Origin: an uncultured Desulfosporosinus sp.
GTDB lineage: Bacteria; Bacillota; Desulfitobacteriia; Desulfitobacteriales; Desulfitobacteriaceae
Direction: 5' to 3'
DNA length: 58,897 nt
Assembly (NCBI GenBank): GCA_927405585.1
Contig: CAKMJS010000005.1
Span: forward strand, 1-58,897
A program made the translations under genes and the position numbers. How positions within the stretch are numbered: the first letter of the stretch is position 1; each line of letters opens with the position of its first letter. The notes beneath the pieces were generated by a model. That model saw nothing but the letters and a program-made list of their open reading frames with translations. It ran no database searches and was not told the DNA's origin. Shown piece by piece: positions 20,245-26,457 of this stretch.

Positions 20245-20442
20245 TTATTTAGAATCTGTTTTTTCTAATAGGATACGGTGATTGAGAAGGGCCATGTCTT
20301 TAATTTTGGCTTGAATAAATTTTTGCTTACCAAAAATATCCATGAGTTTGAGGCCATTTTCATAGGGTTCAATGGTATCGACTGACTCCATGAATAGTAC
20401 TTCGTTGTCTCCATCCTTAAGATAGGCATTCGCTTCACACAT
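20245..20442 (-). CDS. CooT-family nickel-binding small protein
   Basis: This is a 65-residue protein starting MCEANAYLKDGDNEVLFMESVD, with the N-terminal Met-Cys-Glu start typical of the CooT family, whose Cys2 binds Ni(II) and which helps nickel delivery (known for CODH maturation). AAAGGAG lies 9 bp before ATG 20442; an in-frame ATG at 20478 falls inside the upstream gene and lacks a ribosome site. It follows fmdE in one transcript, under the leader RNA at 21029-21106. Confidence 0.82.
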   Translation of the reverse strand: MCEANAYLKDGDNEVLFMESVDTIEPYENGLKLMDIFGKQKFIQAKIKDMALLNHRILLEKTDSK

Positions 20443-20468
20443 ATTAAAATGCTCCTTTAATAAATAAT

Positions 20469-21002
20469 CTAAGACCATCCTCTTGAATAGTCTTTAAAGC
20501 AATCTAGGCATACCTTTTTCCCTTCATCGAGTCGCAGCTTATGCTCTGGAGCACCTTCCCCGCAAATCTCACAAACGAGCGTCGTAAAAATTCTGGCCTT
20601 TTCAGGCAATTCATAAGTTGGCTTCGAGAAATCAAAGAGTTCATCGATAGGGGAGTTCAGTATGTAGTCCTGACGCTGCTGGCGGTCAGTATCTCCGTTG
20701 AGAGGCTTCATGATCATTCTCAGGCTTTCGCCGGTGGACCTGTTATAAAAGCTAAAGGCCATTTTTCCGGTGCCTTTATAAAAAAGGTTCCCTTTCCCGA
20801 AGGTGCAGCCCGTGATTACCTGTATGGCATCGACTCCACAGGCATCGTTTTCGGTGACACATATGATCTCTTCATCGGGAGAAAAACGAATGCCCATTTT
20901 TTTAATAGCTGCCTCACAGACTTTATAACCGATCGCCAGCCCTGGGCATTCATGCCCGTGAAATTCTACTGATTTTTCCCATGGTGTTTTTTCTCTACAC
21001 AT
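20469..21002 (-). CDS. FmdE-family protein with C-terminal zinc ribbon
   Basis: This is a 177-residue protein. The N-terminal FmdE domain has WEKSVEFHGHECPGLAIGY and the motif ENDACGVDAIQVITGCTFGKGN, with conserved Cys and His that bind metal. The C-terminal part (CEICGEGAPEHK, CLDCF) is a zinc ribbon. The family is named after formylmethanofuran dehydrogenase subunit E, but in non-methanogens it is unassigned and often lies by molybdenum, tungsten or nickel genes. It is the first gene of the fmdE-cooT transcript. The ribosome site is GAAGGGAG. Confidence 0.85.
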   Translation of the reverse strand: MCREKTPWEKSVEFHGHECPGLAIGYKVCEAAIKKMGIRFSPDEEIICVTENDACGVDAIQVITGCTFGKGNLFYKGTGKMAFSFYNRSTGESLRMIMKPLNGDTDRQQRQDYILNSPIDELFDFSKPTYELPEKARIFTTLVCEICGEGAPEHKLRLDEGKKVCLDCFKDYSRGWS

Positions 21003-21028: not shown

Positions 21029-21106
21029 CCAAAAAAGACCGCAGAAAGTTGACTATCAAAGTCAGACCTCCATGGTCTATGCAAACACCTTCGTGGTCCT
21101 GCAGGA
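21029..21106 (-). ncRNA. Candidate riboswitch-like leader of fmdE-cooT (copy 1)
   Basis: Read on the minus strand the core is GGACCACGAAGGTGTTTGCA, then a hairpin AGACC-ATGGA-GGTCT, then TGACT and a closing strand GGTCTT followed directly by a T-run. AGGACC at the 5' end can pair with GGTCTT, making a stem that ends in the U-tract, as in a terminator. The same design with compensating base changes occurs before cbiM (23541-23612). It ends 26 bp before the fmdE start. I could not match it to a known riboswitch class. Confidence 0.6.
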
Positions 21107-21260
21107 TGTGTTTAATTTTAGTATTCAATAACTAGCGCATGAATTCCTGCTAGTTTGTGTCTAAAATGAATAAATTAATCCAAAATCATAGACAGCTTTC
21201 CAAGTGGTATAAAATAATGGCGTTTTGTGGAAGATAATCTCACATCAAGGAAGGGATGGG

Positions 21261-23387
21261 ATGGTTATAGCCATGAGCAAAACAGATCCGTTGAGTAATA
21301 CTGGAATAGACAGTCAGGTTATGAGCGCATCTCCTAGCGGAGATATTCTACTCGGTTCCGGCGGCGAGTTGCATCAGCTGGCTGGTGGAGAGCACGCCGC
21401 GCTTACCACGAACCAGGGCGTCGGGCTTTCCGATAATCAAAATTCGCTCAGGGCCAATCCAAAAGGCCCTACGCTTATGGAGGATTTCATATTTCGTGAA
21501 AAAATTACCCATTTCGATCACGAGCGCATTCCTGAGCGCGTCGTCCATGCGCGAGGGACGGGTGTGCATGGTTTCTTCGAGTTAACTGAATCGCTGAAAC
21601 AATATACCACCGCCCGGATACTCAGCGAGGTCGGTGAGAAGACACCTGTGTTTACTCGTTTATCAACGGTCGCAGGCGGCGCAGGTTCCGTCGATACCCC
21701 GCGTGACGTGCGTGGATTTGCCGTTAAGTTCTACACTAAGGATGGCAACTGGGACCTAGTCGGCAACAACATCCCGGTTTTCTTCATCCAGGATGCCCTT
21801 AAATTCCCGGATCTCATCCATGCTGTAAAAATGGAACCAGACCGCGGCTTTCCGCAAGCGGCCACCGCGCATGACACATTCTGGGACTTCATATCTCTCA
21901 CGCCTGAATCAATGCATATGGTGATGTGGATCATGTCAGACCGCACAATACCGCGTTCGCTAAGGATGATCGAAGGCTTCGGCGTGCATAGTTTCCGACT
22001 GATTAACGAGGCTGGCGAATCAACCTTCGTCAAATTCCATTGGCGTCCCAAGCTCGGCTTGCAGTCGACTATTTGGGATGAGACCGTCAAAATTTCCGGT
22101 GCTGATCAAGACTACCACCGGCGCGATATGTTCGAGGCCATCGCGATGGGTAATTTGCCCGAGTGGGAATTCGCCGTTCAGCTTTTCACGCAGGAGGAAG
22201 CGGATAAATTCCCATTCGACCATCTGGACCCGACTAAGCTGATTCCTGAAGAACTGGTGCCCTTGAAAGTGATCGGTCGTATGGTGCTGGATCGTTGGCC
22301 GAACAATTTATTCGCTGAAACTGAACAAGTTGCTTACTGTGCTTCTAATATCGTACCAGGCATTGATTTCTCCAATGATCCTCTGTTGCAAGGCCGTTTA
22401 TTTTCCTATCAAGACACGCAGCTTTCGCGCTTAGGTTCGCCCAATTTCCACCAGATCCCGATCAACGCTCCTAAATGCCCATTCACCAACCAACAACGCG
22501 ACGGACACATGCAGATGGAGCAACCCTCGGGCCGTGTTGCGTATGAGCCCAACTCCTTGTCTGTCAACTCGCCACGCGAAACGCCTGCCAACGGTTTTCA
22601 TAGCGCTACAGTCACTGAAACAGGCGAAAAAGGCCGCATCCGTGCCGAGAGCTTTAAAGACCATTATAGTCAGGCGCGGCAGTTTTATCTCAGCCAAAGC
22701 GTGTATGAACAAGCTCATATCGCCTCAGCCTTAGTGTTTGAGCTCTCCAAAGTCGAACATCTGCACGTGAGAAAAGCGATCGTCGGTCACCTGCGGCATA
22801 TCGAAGAAACTCTAGCCAGCCGAGTAGCCACGGGTCTGGCCCTCGACAAAATCCCCGACGCGCCAGTGGCCGCATCGCCCGTTAAGGAGATGCCCCCTTC
22901 GCCCGCACTGCAAATCATCGGTAAGATGAAATACACACTGATGGGGCGCGCAGTTGGCATCCTGATCACAGATGGTTCAGATGGCGCTGTGATCGAGACA
23001 ATTAAAAAGGCCGTGACAGATGCGGGGGCGGCAGTCACAATTATCGCTCCCAAAGTGGGGGGAGTGAAGCTTGCCGATGATTCGATACTAGTTGCGGATA
23101 AGCAACTAGCCGGGACTCCGTCTGTGCTCTTCGACGCGGTGGGAGTTATCCTCTCCGACGAAGGTGCAACGGCATTGTCCATGGAAAGTGCCGCCATCGA
23201 TTTTGTACGAGATGCTTTCGGTCACCTTAAAGCAATCGCCGTCGACAAAGGTGGCCAGGCGCTTTTGAAAACAGCCAATGTCGGACAAGACGAGGGCATC
23301 GTGAATACCAATGATAAAGACGCATTTATTATTGCGGCCAAGACCCGCCAATGGGAGCGGGAAAAATCCGTTCGAACCTTGGCATAG
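21261..23387 (+). CDS. katE: Large-subunit catalase, KatE/HPII type
   Basis: This is a 708-residue haem catalase. The core has the distal His in [12 protein letters not shown], the Asn region [18 protein letters not shown] and the proximal haem Tyr in [14 protein letters not shown]. Residues about 560-708 form the extra DJ-1/GATase-like domain ([15 protein letters not shown]) that marks large-subunit catalases. It converts H2O2 to water and oxygen. The ATG at 21261 lies 7 bp after GGAAGGG; an in-frame ATG at 21273 is also possible. The gene is visibly richer in GC than its neighbours and uses different third positions, which suggests transfer from another lineage. It sits alone between fmdE and cbiM. 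Confidence 0.95.
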
Positions 23388-23469
23388 ATACCTGTGAAGG
23401 GCTAATTTTGCCTATTCAAATATTTTTTTGTTTAGTCGGGCTATGGATTTCGTATATGATGAATATTGT

Positions 23470-23504
23470 TTTCCTTTGCAGGAAATCTAGGAATCATGTA
23501 GAAT
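23470..23504 (+). promoter_or_regulatory. Candidate sigma-A promoter and operator of the cbiM transcript
   Basis: TTGCAG at 23476-23481, a 17-bp spacer and TAGAAT at 23499-23504 form a promoter. A palindrome TTTCCT-TTGC-AGGAAA (23470-23485) covers the -35 region and may bind a repressor. Transcription from here would include the leader RNA at 23541. Confidence 0.45.
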
Positions 23505-23540
23505 GTAATATACTATAGAAATTAAAGATGATATTGCTGA

Positions 23541-23612
23541 GCAAGACCATGAAGGTGTTTGCAAAAAACCATGGAGGTTTGACTCATTAGGGTCTGCTTT
23601 TTGGTTTTTTTT
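23541..23612 (+). ncRNA. Candidate riboswitch-like leader of cbiMQO (copy 2)
   Basis: The core GACCATGAAGGTGTTTGCA is followed by the hairpin AAACC-ATGGA-GGTTT, TGACT and the closing strand GGTCTGC directly before TTTTTGG and a longer T-run. The second stem differs from copy 1 at two base pairs that both keep pairing (GC to AT), while loop ATGGA and the linker GTGTTTGCA are unchanged. The 5' GC(A)AGACC can pair with GGTCTGC to give a terminator-like stem. The nickel/cobalt nature of both downstream transcripts suggests metal or cofactor control (inference). Confidence 0.6.
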
Positions 23613-23677
23613 ATTATCTGAGATGAATGGCGCGAAAGCAATATTAATTAAAAAGACAAACCATACGATAAGGATGT

Positions 23678-23784
23678 ATAGTGAACTCGTTTAGCTTAAG
23701 CTAAACATCGAGGCTTCAGTAGGGGATTCTACCCCCACTGAAGCGACGAAGTACGCTCCCACTTGTAGAAGTGGGAGTCATATG
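23678..23784 (-). repeat. Full-length copy of the IS200/IS605-like dispersed repeat
   Basis: This is the same element as at 19853-19965 in reverse orientation, well conserved in all blocks, including CTACCCCCACTGAAGCGACG and the terminal AAGTGGGAGTCATATGG. It lies between the cbiM leader and the cbiM start codon, so the element is part of the cbiM 5' untranslated region. Confidence 0.7.
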
Positions 23785-23812
23785 GCTAGAGATATAATTG
23801 GAGTGATACATT

Positions 23813-24865
23813 ATGCATATGGCAGATGCCTTAATTTCACCGTTAGTCGGTGGAACCATGTGGGTTGCAACAGCGGGCGTTGCGGCTTATTCCATTAAAA
23901 AGATTCAAACTGAGATGGATGAAAAGAAAATTCCTTTAATGGGCGTCATGGGAGCGTTTATCTTTGCGTCCCAGATGATTAACTTCACGATACCAGGGAC
24001 AGGCTCGAGTGGTCATATCGGAGGAGGTTTAATTCTAGCCATATTACTGGGTCCTTATGCGGGCTTCTTAACTCTGGCATCCGTGCTCACTATTCAAGCG
24101 TTATTTTTCGCAGATGGAGGGCTGTTGGCCTTAGGCAGTAATGTTTTCAATATGGGCTTCTTCACCTGTTTTGTTGCCTATCCCTTGATCTATAAAGTGC
24201 TCATGGGAAAAGGTTATTCGACTAAGCGGATTATCGTTGTATCCGTTATTGCGGCTATCATTGGCCTTCAGCTGGGTGCTTTCGGAGTCGTACTAGAAAC
24301 GCTCTTTTCCGGTAAGACCGAGTTACCCTTTGGAACGTTCGTCCTCTTAATGCAACCTATTCATCTGGCCATTGGTGCAATAGAAGGCTTGGTCACAGCC
24401 GCTATTGTAACGTATATTTGGAACCAGCGCCCAGAAATAATTGAGAGGGCTGCCTCAGGAGAGGCGATTGGCAATGCCTCTATAAAGAAGGTTGCTTTAG
24501 GACTTATCTCGGTTGCGCTGATTACAGGAGCGGGATTATCTTGGTTTGCCTCTTCCAATCCAGATGGCTTGGAATGGGCGATAAGCAAGACGACTGGTAC
24601 CGCCGAACTTGAGTCGCCAGTTGGCCTTCATCAAAAGCTCTCTGACCTGCAGAGCAAAATTGCATTTCTGCCTGATTATTCGTTTAAGGCACCAGAAAGT
24701 GAAGCGGGACAAGGTGCTGGAGAAGGCGAAGAAGCTTGGCCTGCCGTAAGTGAAGGAACGAGTACGGCGGGATTAGTGGGTGGCGGGATGACACTGGCCT
24801 TAGCTGCTCTTGTAGGTGCAGGTATCAGTCTCCTGAAACGAAGAAAGTATAGAGCAAATTCATAA
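23813..24865 (+). CDS. Cobalt/nickel ECF transporter, substrate-specific CbiM-CbiN fusion
   Basis: This is a 350-residue membrane protein. It starts MHMADALISP; the exposed N-terminal Met-His segment binds the metal ion in CbiM/NikM. About seven membrane helices fill residues 10-245. The C-terminal part has SSNPDGLEWAI (the PDGLEW motif of CbiN/NikN-type domains), an extracellular linker and a last membrane helix with RRKYR. It therefore combines the S component with its partner subunit. Cobalt and nickel cannot be told apart by eye. It is the first gene of cbiM-cbiQ-cbiO. GGAG lies about 9 bp before the ATG. Confidence 0.9.
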   Translation: MHMADALISPLVGGTMWVATAGVAAYSIKKIQTEMDEKKIPLMGVMGAFIFASQMINFTIPGTGSSGHIGGGLILAILLGPYAGFLTLASVLTIQALFFADGGLLALGSNVFNMGFFTCFVAYPLIYKVLMGKGYSTKRIIVVSVIAAIIGLQLGAFGVVLETLFSGKTELPFGTFVLLMQPIHLAIGAIEGLVTAAIVTYIWNQRPEIIERAASGEAIGNASIKKVALGLISVALITGAGLSWFASSNPDGLEWAISKTTGTAELESPVGLHQKLSDLQSKIAFLPDYSFKAPESEAGQGAGEGEEAWPAVSEGTSTAGLVGGGMTLALAALVGAGISLLKRRKYRANS

Positions 24866-24892: not shown

Positions 24893-25702
24893 ATGGCAAA
24901 CATCATGAATTCATTGTATAATATGCGGCTGCTTGATGATCTAGCCAGGCAGGAAACTATCATACACAAGCTCCATCCTCTCATGAAATTATTAACCACA
25001 GTTAGCTTTTTAACTGTGGTTGTATCCTTTGGAAGATATGAAATTAGTGGTTTACTACCGTTGTTTGTCTACCCTGTGATGGTTTTTTCGTTGGCAGAAC
25101 TACCCTTGAAGCCGATCCTTTTAAGGATTTTGCTTGTTTCACCGTTCATTATTGGAATAGGTATCTTAAATCCTTTTTTTGACCAGCAAATCTATCGGCT
25201 GGGTGGAATGGAAATCTCAAGAGGGTGGCTCACCTTCCTTTCGATTTTGATCAAGAGTGGGTTAACTGTAACGGCGGCCCTACTACTAATTGCTTCCACG
25301 GGAATGGACCGATTAGCTGGGGCTTTAAGAATGTTGAAAATCCCCCGTATCTTTGTGCTCCAACTGCTCTTAACCTATCGATATATCTCTGTCTTGATGG
25401 AGGAGGTTGCTCGCACCTTAAGAGCGTATTCACTTCGGGCTCCAAATCAAAAAGGGGTTCATCGGAGCGCTTGGGGGTCACTGGCGGGACAACTAATACT
25501 GCGGACCTTTGATAGAGCCCAACGGATTTACGAAGCTATGTGTCTAAGAGGTTTTACTGGAGAGTACGAGACGGGGGGCTTCAAAGAAATTAGGGTCTGG
25601 GATATAGCTTATTGGGCAGGATGGATGTTATTCTTTGTAGCGGCAAGGCTATACAATATTCCGATGGTAATAGGTTCATTGATAACGGGAGTGATAAGAT
25701 GA
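24893..25702 (+). CDS. cbiQ: ECF transporter transmembrane (T) component CbiQ
   Basis: This is a 269-residue protein with about five or six membrane helices. The two coupling-helix motifs with A-R-G-like sequences are seen as LRAYSLRAPNQ and YEAMCLRGFTGEY. It joins the substrate-binding CbiM to the ATPase. Its stop overlaps the CbiO start codon (ATGA), so the two are coupled in translation. Confidence 0.9.
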   Translation: MANIMNSLYNMRLLDDLARQETIIHKLHPLMKLLTTVSFLTVVVSFGRYEISGLLPLFVYPVMVFSLAELPLKPILLRILLVSPFIIGIGILNPFFDQQIYRLGGMEISRGWLTFLSILIKSGLTVTAALLLIASTGMDRLAGALRMLKIPRIFVLQLLLTYRYISVLMEEVARTLRAYSLRAPNQKGVHRSAWGSLAGQLILRTFDRAQRIYEAMCLRGFTGEYETGGFKEIRVWDIAYWAGWMLFFVAARLYNIPMVIGSLITGVIR

Positions 25703-26457
25703 GTCATCATAAACTTGAGGCCAAGGATCTCCATTATAGTTATCCAGATGACCATGAAGCGGTCAAAGGGATGTCCTTTTGTATCCATCATGGAGAGTCC
25801 GTGGGAATCATAGGAGCCAACGGAGCAGGAAAATCGACGTTGCTGATGTTGCTCATGGGGGTGCTTTTTCCGAGCCAGGGTGAAGTTTGTGTGGGCGACG
25901 TTCATGTGACAAAAAAGACTCTTCCGATGATTCGGCAAAGGCTGGGTATGGTTTTTCAGGACCCAGACGACCAGTTATTTATGAGCACTGTCTATGATGA
26001 CGTCGCCTTTGGGCCTCGAAATTATAAGCTGGACGAAAAGGAAGTCGAAACGCGCGTCCTCCATGCTCTGGAATTGGTGGGAATCCTTCACCTAAAAGAT
26101 CGCGCGCCGTTTAAATTATCCGGTGGAGAAAAGCGGGCTGCGGCGATTGCCTCGGTGCTTTCAATGCACCCGGATGTCCTTGTGATGGATGAACCCACGG
26201 CAGCTTTGGATCCCAAATCTAGACGAAGGGTCATGAAACTGCTTACGAGCTTTAAACACACCAAAATTATCACCAGTCACGATCTGGACATGATTTATGA
26301 GATGTGTGATAGAACCATTGTGATCAAAAACGGAGAGATTGCGGCGGATGGGGTGACGTCAGAAATACTGGTCAATGCTCAACTGATGGATGAGTGCGGA
26401 CTTGAGGTGCCCTTAGCCATGCAAAATTGTCCAGTTTGCGGGTCGGCAAAAGAATAA
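25699..26457 (+). CDS. cbiO: ECF transporter ATP-binding protein CbiO
   Basis: This is a 252-residue ATPase with Walker A GANGAGKST, Q-loop MVFQDPDDQLF, signature LSGGEKRAAAIA, Walker B VLVMDEPTAALD and the switch His in TSHD. It drives cobalt/nickel uptake with CbiQ and CbiM. The ATG at 25699 overlaps the cbiQ stop. The last residues carry a CPVC motif (NCPVCGSAKE), unusual for this family and perhaps metal-binding. The transcript ends at the bidirectional terminator at 26482. Confidence 0.93.
   Translation: MSHHKLEAKDLHYSYPDDHEAVKGMSFCIHHGESVGIIGANGAGKSTLLMLLMGVLFPSQGEVCVGDVHVTKKTLPMIRQRLGMVFQDPDDQLFMSTVYDDVAFGPRNYKLDEKEVETRVLHALELVGILHLKDRAPFKLSGGEKRAAAIASVLSMHPDVLVMDEPTAALDPKSRRRVMKLLTSFKHTKIITSHDLDMIYEMCDRTIVIKNGEIAADGVTSEILVNAQLMDECGLEVPLAMQNCPVCGSAKE

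Follow-up and report, generated by a model that had tools for sequence, protein, structure and literature searches.

The window analysed here, the whole 58,897-nucleotide (nt) stretch of DNA from an uncultured Desulfosporosinus sp., carries two copies of a short leader element, one (21104-21030, minus strand) before an fmdE-cooT operon and the other (23539-23613, plus strand) before cbiM and further genes of a cobalt/nickel energy-coupling factor (ECF) transporter. An earlier note on this DNA had proposed that the same element precedes both transcripts; both copies were located, and repeat copies elsewhere in the genome place the likeness beyond chance. The element is real, widespread and uncatalogued, and it extends far beyond these two copies. 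We consider it highly probable (about 0.9) that it is a cis-acting transcription attenuator for nickel and cobalt uptake and use genes, and we give a probability of about 0.5 to the reading that it is read by a protein active in metal-poor cells. The downstream genes had been described as encoding a nickel-binding CooT, an FmdE protein and a cobalt/nickel ECF transporter, and Pfam agrees:

20469 to 21002, minus strand: FmdE-family protein with a DksA/TraR-type zinc finger (PF02663, 3.4e-36)
20245 to 20478, minus strand: CooT, of the carbon monoxide dehydrogenase (CODH) accessory protein family (PF10133, 7.7e-25; PDB 6fan, CooT, 1.9e-16)
23813 to 24865, plus strand: CbiM, S component of the cobalt/nickel ECF transporter (PF01891, 1.2e-57)
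24893 to 25702, plus strand: CbiQ (PF02361, 7.1e-27)
25612 to 26457, plus strand: CbiO-type ABC ATPase, given as the open frame from TTG (PF00005, 2.4e-32); its true start probably lies further in, near 25700

Anatomy of the two leaders

The two copies have ACCAYGAAGGTGTTTGCA and RACCATGGAGGTY in common and share one order from 5' to 3': a SigH-like promoter, hairpin P1, a spacer of 1-3 nt, hairpin P2, hairpin P3, a terminator 3' arm and a U-tract. In the fmdE-cooT leader these are:

21123 to 21148, minus strand: SigH-like promoter (AGGA 21148-21145, GAAT 21126-21123)
21081 to 21102, minus strand: P1, GCAGGACC-ACGAA-GGT(G)TTTGC, from the minimum free energy fold
21064 to 21078, minus strand: P2, AGACC-ATGGA-GGTCT, from the fold of the cut piece; its 5' half doubles as the terminator 5' arm
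21051 to 21063, minus strand: P3, GACT..AGTC, a small hairpin in the terminator loop
21031 to 21048, minus strand: terminator 3' arm CTTTCTGCGGTC and U-tract

and in the cbiM leader:

23480 to 23504, plus strand: SigH-like promoter (AGGA 23480-23483, GAAT 23501-23504)
23541 to 23562, plus strand: P1, GCAAGACC-ATGAA-GGT(G)TTTGC, from the fold
23567 to 23579, plus strand: P2, AACC-ATGGA-GGTT, from the fold
23581 to 23594, plus strand: P3, GACTC..GGGTC, from the fold
23597 to 23612, plus strand: terminator 3' arm CTTTTTGGTT and U-tract

Written as RNA, the window copies follow the patterns GCARRACC-AYGAA-GGU-bulged G-UUUGC for P1, RACC-AUGGA-GGUY for P2 and GACU..AGUC for P3. The terminator is formed by the P2 5' arm and P2 loop paired with the 3' arm, with P3 enclosed. 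In the general core, P2 reduces to N-N-CC-AYGRA-GG-N-N with the arms paired, and its 5' arm and loop again serve as the terminator 5' arm.

This anatomy corrects several details of the earlier description. The stretch GTGTTTGCA, taken for an invariant linker, is the 3' arm of P1, since its TTTGC pairs with the upstream GCAA or GCAG. The final GGTCT had been placed directly before the U-tract; in the cbiM copy that GGGTCT is the 3' arm of the inner hairpin (GACTC..GGGTC), with the terminator arm CTTTTTGGTT right after it. The RACC/GGTY stem, credited with two compensatory pairs, has one between the window copies (G-C to A-T). The switch arrangement, in which a 5' arm pairs either locally or with the tail, stands, but the arm involved is the second RACC, that of P2, and not that of P1: among 24 copies, the variable base of the terminator tail makes a Watson-Crick pair with the P2 arm in 23 and with the P1 arm in 11. 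Because the tail base tracks P2 and not P1, P2 and the terminator are mutually exclusive, and P1 and P3 are compatible with both states. The P1-P2 spacer is 1-3 nt in all 24 genus copies of set A2 (2 nt in 22 of them), and the spacing is also short in nine distant copies (no more than 7 nt, counted up to the third base before CC).

The promoter pattern upstream of the element (AGGAAW, 12-18 nt, GAAT), which we take to be of the SigH type by name and consensus, occurs in both window leaders and in loci L097-L116; it was found upstream of 36 of 67 copies and in 28 of 2520 random stretches, and control by a SigH-like sigma factor would be unusual for metal uptake. A leader peptide was considered and rejected, as the frame ATGAAGGTGTTTGCA..ATGGAGGTTTGA is broken by the varying spacing and by ACG in the fmdE copies.

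Spread, covariation and partner hairpins

The 18-mer shared by the copies occurs in the window's genome four times exactly and once with a single mismatch, each time followed by the second half of the element. A scan of 84,980 species genomes returned it in 39 contig stretches; 23 of these, all from Desulfosporosinus, also have the second half, and the other 16, from other organisms and without the second half, look like chance matches. The covariance model R1, built from 24 genus copies (set A1 omits L036 and L038, identical to other rows; A2 and R1 also omit L011 and L012), had matches at E 0.01 in 38 of 45 family genomes, with up to 16 matches per genome. The search for relatives suggested in the earlier note thus recovered the element widely, before metal genes. 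Weak R1 matches revealed a wider core lacking P1. The model R2, made from 32 copies picked by eye and holding the terminator pairing but not P2, had matches in 78 of the 398 genomes sampled from the phylum, and R3, made from 79 copies, matched 115 of the 398, with up to 13 matches per genome. All per-genome counts include antisense readings of near-palindromic copies, and the model E-values are rough, with about 4 of 398 genomes possibly matching by chance at E 0.01. As a control, R3 matched none of the 16 unrelated genomes that had supplied the chance 18-mer contigs and both of two Desulfosporosinus genomes. Of the ten R3 matches in the window's genome, eight lie on another contig (C125) and the other two are the window copies.

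Pairing was assessed in set A5, which comprises 79 copies: 62 distant ones found with R2 and 17 family ones found with R1, which held P2. The distant copies derive from 60 regions that are part of the R2 matches in the phylum (G067, G313 and G072:C10 were dropped by eye as simple palindromes, and many weaker matches were excluded). From 107 distant R2 matches 84 were kept, the rest being mostly antisense readings of places already represented; A5 further omits short palindromes and truncated or near-duplicate copies and required the loop pattern. In this set 96.5% of the terminator cells are paired, and six pairs show two-sided change in 91 cells compared with 25.2 in shuffles (0 of 500 as high), a count that leans towards pairing because the models that found the copies, R2 among them, included that pairing. 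For P2, 88.4% of the cells are paired, and four of six pairs show two-sided change in 53 cells compared with 23.1 in shuffles (0 of 500 as high). In the P2 loop, positions 2 (Y) and 4 (R) change in step with the terminator arm, giving 22 and 27 two-sided cells, respectively; position 4 is A in 44 and G in 35 of the 79 copies. The genus set alone gave one two-sided terminator pair, with 10 cells. In folding predictions all 79 full copies adopted the terminator, and 76 of 79 adopted P2 when cut before the 3' arm, with a median gap of 11.9 kcal/mol. Judged from the sequences, P2 and the terminator are mutually exclusive and both covary: either one or the other would form, never both, because the intrinsic terminator uses the same 5' arm and loop as P2.

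Most distant copies have a second (A)NGRA hairpin, which may lie on either side of P2. Of 62 distant copies, 45 carry such a partner, either upstream (P1) or within the loop of the terminator (P3), compared with a shuffle mean of 5.0 and a maximum of 10. P3 with an NGRA loop accounts for 19 of 62 (2.0 in shuffles) and P1 for 33 of 62; six permuted control loops gave 1-8 for P3 and 2-11 for P1, values between those of the shuffles and those observed. A C-ANGAA-G hairpin with at least five Watson-Crick pairs was found in 16 of 84 upstream stretches (0.01 in shuffles), and the control loop AAGNA, which shares AAGAA with ANGAA, in 5 of 84; with a wider loop set, 31 of 79 had an upstream hairpin (0.2 in shuffles). 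The distant P1 hairpins keep the (A)NGAA loop on changing stems, as in GGCATC-ATGAA-GATGCC, CCTGGC-ATGAA-GCCAGG, GCAACC-ATGAA-GGTTGC and ACATGTC-ACGAA-GGCATGT. We also observed a subtype in which P2 and the terminator arm have a common inner part (AGGCGGCA..GGCGCC) between them (L097:434-489, L107:4344-4402, L115:14343-14402), which may be a separate recognition module.

Genes behind the element and its likely reader

BLAST was used to cluster the frames behind the element, covering 182 copies of which 173 have a frame, and Pfam to name the cluster representatives. Genes of a metal set (CbiM, CbiQ, NikA-like SBP_bac_5, permease, Peripla_BP_2, FmdE, CooT, CobN, ZnuA, CsoR/RcnR, ECF S component and CooC-like) lie behind 109 of the 173 copies (57 of 91 in the family, 52 of 82 distant), counted without a random-gene control. 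Outside this count, some frames weakly match NicO, a nickel transporter, and HycI, a hydrogenase protease, in each case below the cut-off. Recurrent element-led genes encode an S-adenosylmethionine (SAM) methyltransferase (26 copies) and DUF3842 (9 copies), a family on which a literature search at overview level returned no paper.

Some loci carry further features. The element leads a 60-61-amino-acid protein in five genus loci (including L097:8159-8341 and L107:3697-3882), with no Pfam match in the two copies scanned; the window's genome encodes this protein three times, whereas none of 39 other element-bearing genomes tested has it. Copies that lie 100-240 nt behind 5S rRNA or tRNA genes (L149:86-200, L173:22-137, L196:3224-3421) may therefore be read from the rRNA or tRNA transcripts. 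Two cobalamin riboswitches flank an element-led DUF3842 gene (L147:9705-10855), and the L143 copy has a Moco riboswitch on its upstream side (1784-1902). In the window, a long catalase gene (21225-23387; Pfam Catalase, Catalase-rel and Catalase_C) separates the two element-led operons, and two strong hairpins seen by eye between the element and cbiM (23700-23785; GCTTCAGT..ACTGAAGC and CTCCCACTTGTAGAAGTGGGAG) look like the end of an IS200/IS605-type element.

We propose that P2 would form before the terminator 3' arm is made. Since the terminator beats unaided P2 in folding, P2 alone would lose to it, and the default state of the leader would be OFF, changing to ON if P2 is kept in place. The GRA bases of the P2 loop are where the terminator 3' arm would start pairing; because the first bases of that arm pair with the loop, a factor gripping the (A)NGRA loops of P2 and its partner hairpin would block the terminator directly and permit read-through. 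The least certain step is the nature of this factor, which may be an RNA-binding protein active in its metal-poor (apo) form: uptake genes that are ON should mean metal shortage, and the factor should thus be active without metal. The short P1-P2 spacing would leave little room for end-to-end loop docking of the guanidine-II type and so favours a protein. Together, the short hairpin spacing, the movable partner and the copies with a single hairpin fit a protein-read antiterminator at least as well as a riboswitch. Of the "riboswitch-like leader" named in the earlier note, the switch-like leader before nickel/cobalt genes is retained, and a riboswitch with a metal ligand is a less favoured possibility.

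Several observations weigh against a protein-read attenuator of metal genes. By the clusters used, 64 of the 173 copies with a frame have no metal-set gene behind them. Partner hairpins are lacking in 17 of 62 distant copies, and the strict (A)NGRA partner test was positive in 0 of the 17 family rows of A5, the family P1 escaping it because it is bulged or absent; many family copies among the weak R1 matches have no P1. The covariation that the earlier note looked for in an alignment is absent within the genus set A2, with zero two-sided change in P1 or P2 because copies were selected by the exact loop pattern, and it appears for P2 when distant copies are added. The sense of control we infer from gene function only. 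Finally, in 40 element-bearing genomes, hand-picked from the R3 scan together with 40 element-free genomes (no R3 match), no tested protein (CooT, DUF3842, ANTAR, CsrA or the product of the 61-amino-acid gene) was present throughout.

The last of these points also speaks for a true riboswitch, the best-placed rival and one that we regard as a tentative possibility. The (A)NGRA hairpins would bind a small ligand (Ni2+ or Co2+, a metal chelate, or a compound accumulating when metal is short), stabilising P2 and preventing termination. The conservation of the loops on changing stems, as in guanidine-II, is consistent with this, and two P2-type loops could pair with each other, Y2 with G3 and G3 with Y2. 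Moreover, G046 (99% complete, 220 contigs) and G049 (99% complete) are without CooT and hold typical copies before binding-protein genes (Peripla_BP_2 and SBP_bac_5, respectively). A riboswitch is, however, less easily reconciled with copies that have one recognisable hairpin, with a spacing of 1-3 nt in the genus and with a partner on either side of P2; and if hairpin binding means read-through, a metal ligand would turn uptake ON in response to metal, contrary to the sense expected of uptake genes. The wider proposal of a new riboswitch class across much of the phylum, in which one or two (A)NGRA hairpins sense nickel/cobalt status and RNA replaces NikR, we hold to be somewhat doubtful.

It is improbable that CooT, a homodimer with one Ni per dimer, is itself an RNA-binding antiterminator controlling its own leader. 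CooT was found in 36 of 40 element-bearing and 9 of 40 element-free genomes (Fisher p 9e-10, descent ignored), CooT frames are themselves element-led (behind 13 of the 91 copies in the family and 4 of the 82 distant ones), and a part of PMC6006190 describes a small dimeric beta protein with a nickel site. This association is explicable by common nickel/CODH physiology and descent, however, and G046 and G049 have typical copies and no CooT. DUF3842 is present in 38 of 40 element-bearing and 13 of 40 element-free genomes (p 4e-9, descent ignored); it was rejected as a universal factor, being absent from G046. With G046 lacking both proteins and G049 lacking CooT, either is thus unlikely to be a required factor, which leaves the RNA itself as sensor or a protein encoded away from the element. 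CsrA (33 of 40 compared with 29 of 40) was rejected as the factor, being absent from G341 and G404 at 99% completeness, as was the 61-amino-acid protein as a universal factor, present in 1 of 40 element-bearing genomes.

Slightly less probable still is the view that a metal-dependent repressor binds the element as a DNA operator, with a terminator nearby. GACC-ATGGA-GGTC is indeed an imperfect inverted repeat, highly conserved in the family, but the P1 stems differ in sequence around an identical loop, P2 and the terminator covary through the same 5' arm, and the distance to the promoter pattern, where found, is 31 to 78 nt. Among repressors only NikR was searched, and strong hits were found in 0 of 40 element-bearing and 3 of 40 element-free genomes, with 2 weak hits in each set (in element-bearing genomes, G341 at 22.7 bits against a cut-off of 22, and G288 at 21.2). 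ANTAR-type dual-hairpin antitermination is largely refuted: its layout of two small hairpins with loops starting in A, a variable linker and a second hairpin that excludes the terminator is the same (from a part of PMC3369931), and the protein is in 34 of 40 element-bearing and 23 of 40 element-free genomes (p 0.013), but it is lacking in 6 of 40, including G217 and G382 at 99% completeness, and the loops differ, as detailed below.

The element names a regulon, marking more than a hundred leaders. It bears on nickel/cobalt uptake control where NikR is missing, as in nearly all tested element-bearing genomes. A section of PMC2667541 reports NikR in less than half of the organisms with NikABCDE and a predicted B12 riboswitch before NikABCDE of Desulfitobacterium hafniense, so that other control exists in the family. 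The element also ties little-known families (FmdE, DUF3842, CobN-like proteins and a small SAM methyltransferase) to nickel/cobalt, and the short RNA is directly usable for a ligand assay or as bait for a new RNA-binding metal sensor.

Comparison with known systems

Rfam 15 gave nothing at the gathering threshold in the window and nothing at E up to 10 over the two window copies. On the element itself, no family reached threshold in 16 further loci, where there were two weak overlaps, or at gathering in 20 more loci. The overlaps were trpB (RF04312) with the L143 copy, at 32.8 bits (threshold 59), which rests on the terminator hairpin, the U-tract and A/U-rich flanks and differs in the loop, and STnc150 with the L107 copy, at 21.2 bits (threshold 60). 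An Rfam match, named in the earlier note as a possible refutation, was thus not seen above threshold, which supports, as far as Rfam goes, its view of the leader as unrecognised. Overview-level literature searches on nickel/cobalt riboswitches, NiCo/czcD, cbiM/CooT leaders and Desulfosporosinus gave no description of the element among the papers listed.

The NiCo (czcD) riboswitch resembles the element in that its control is tied to nickel and cobalt. It leads efflux genes and has a larger structure, whereas the element leads uptake and use genes, is much smaller and, in its window copies, matched no Rfam family at E up to 10. The TwoAYGGAY RNA motif, reportedly described by Weinberg in 2010, is said by its name to have two hairpins with AYGGAY loops; two hairpins are the likeness, but the loops of the element are AYGRA followed by the closing G, and no Rfam match lies over the window copies. 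CsrA/RsmA proteins recognise ANGGA in hairpin loops, a sequence that stands in the P2 loop of the window's family, and two such sites could be read by a dimer. In 44 of 79 copies, however, the loop has A at position 4, and 7 of 40 element-bearing genomes are without CsrA.

The ANTAR target RNAs (for instance the eutP, nasF and amiE leaders) share with the element two small hairpins with conserved loops and a variable linker, the second hairpin excluding the terminator, a layout that most copies have (17 of 62 distant ones are without a partner). The excerpted account in PMC3369931 gives hexanucleotide loops with A at position 1 and G at position 4, whereas the loop of the element is a pentaloop A-N-G-R-A, with G at 3 and R at 4, or a tetraloop N-G-R-A. 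In addition, the partner hairpin of the element may sit inside the terminator loop, and some host genomes lack ANTAR proteins. Guanidine-II (mini-ykkC) is alike in having two hairpins with near-identical short loops, ACGR there and AYGRA in the element. In the part of PMC5486947 consulted, it consists of two G+C-rich stems with ACGR tetraloops, and its 14-nt linker has to bridge 49 A. In the element, the P2 loop is one base longer and allows U at position 2; the five-base loop is found in 79 of 84 distant R2 matches, the rows of A5 having been picked for it. In contrast to guanidine-II, the linker is often very short, the element overlaps the terminator, and the genes downstream are of the nickel/cobalt type rather than of guanidine metabolism or efflux.

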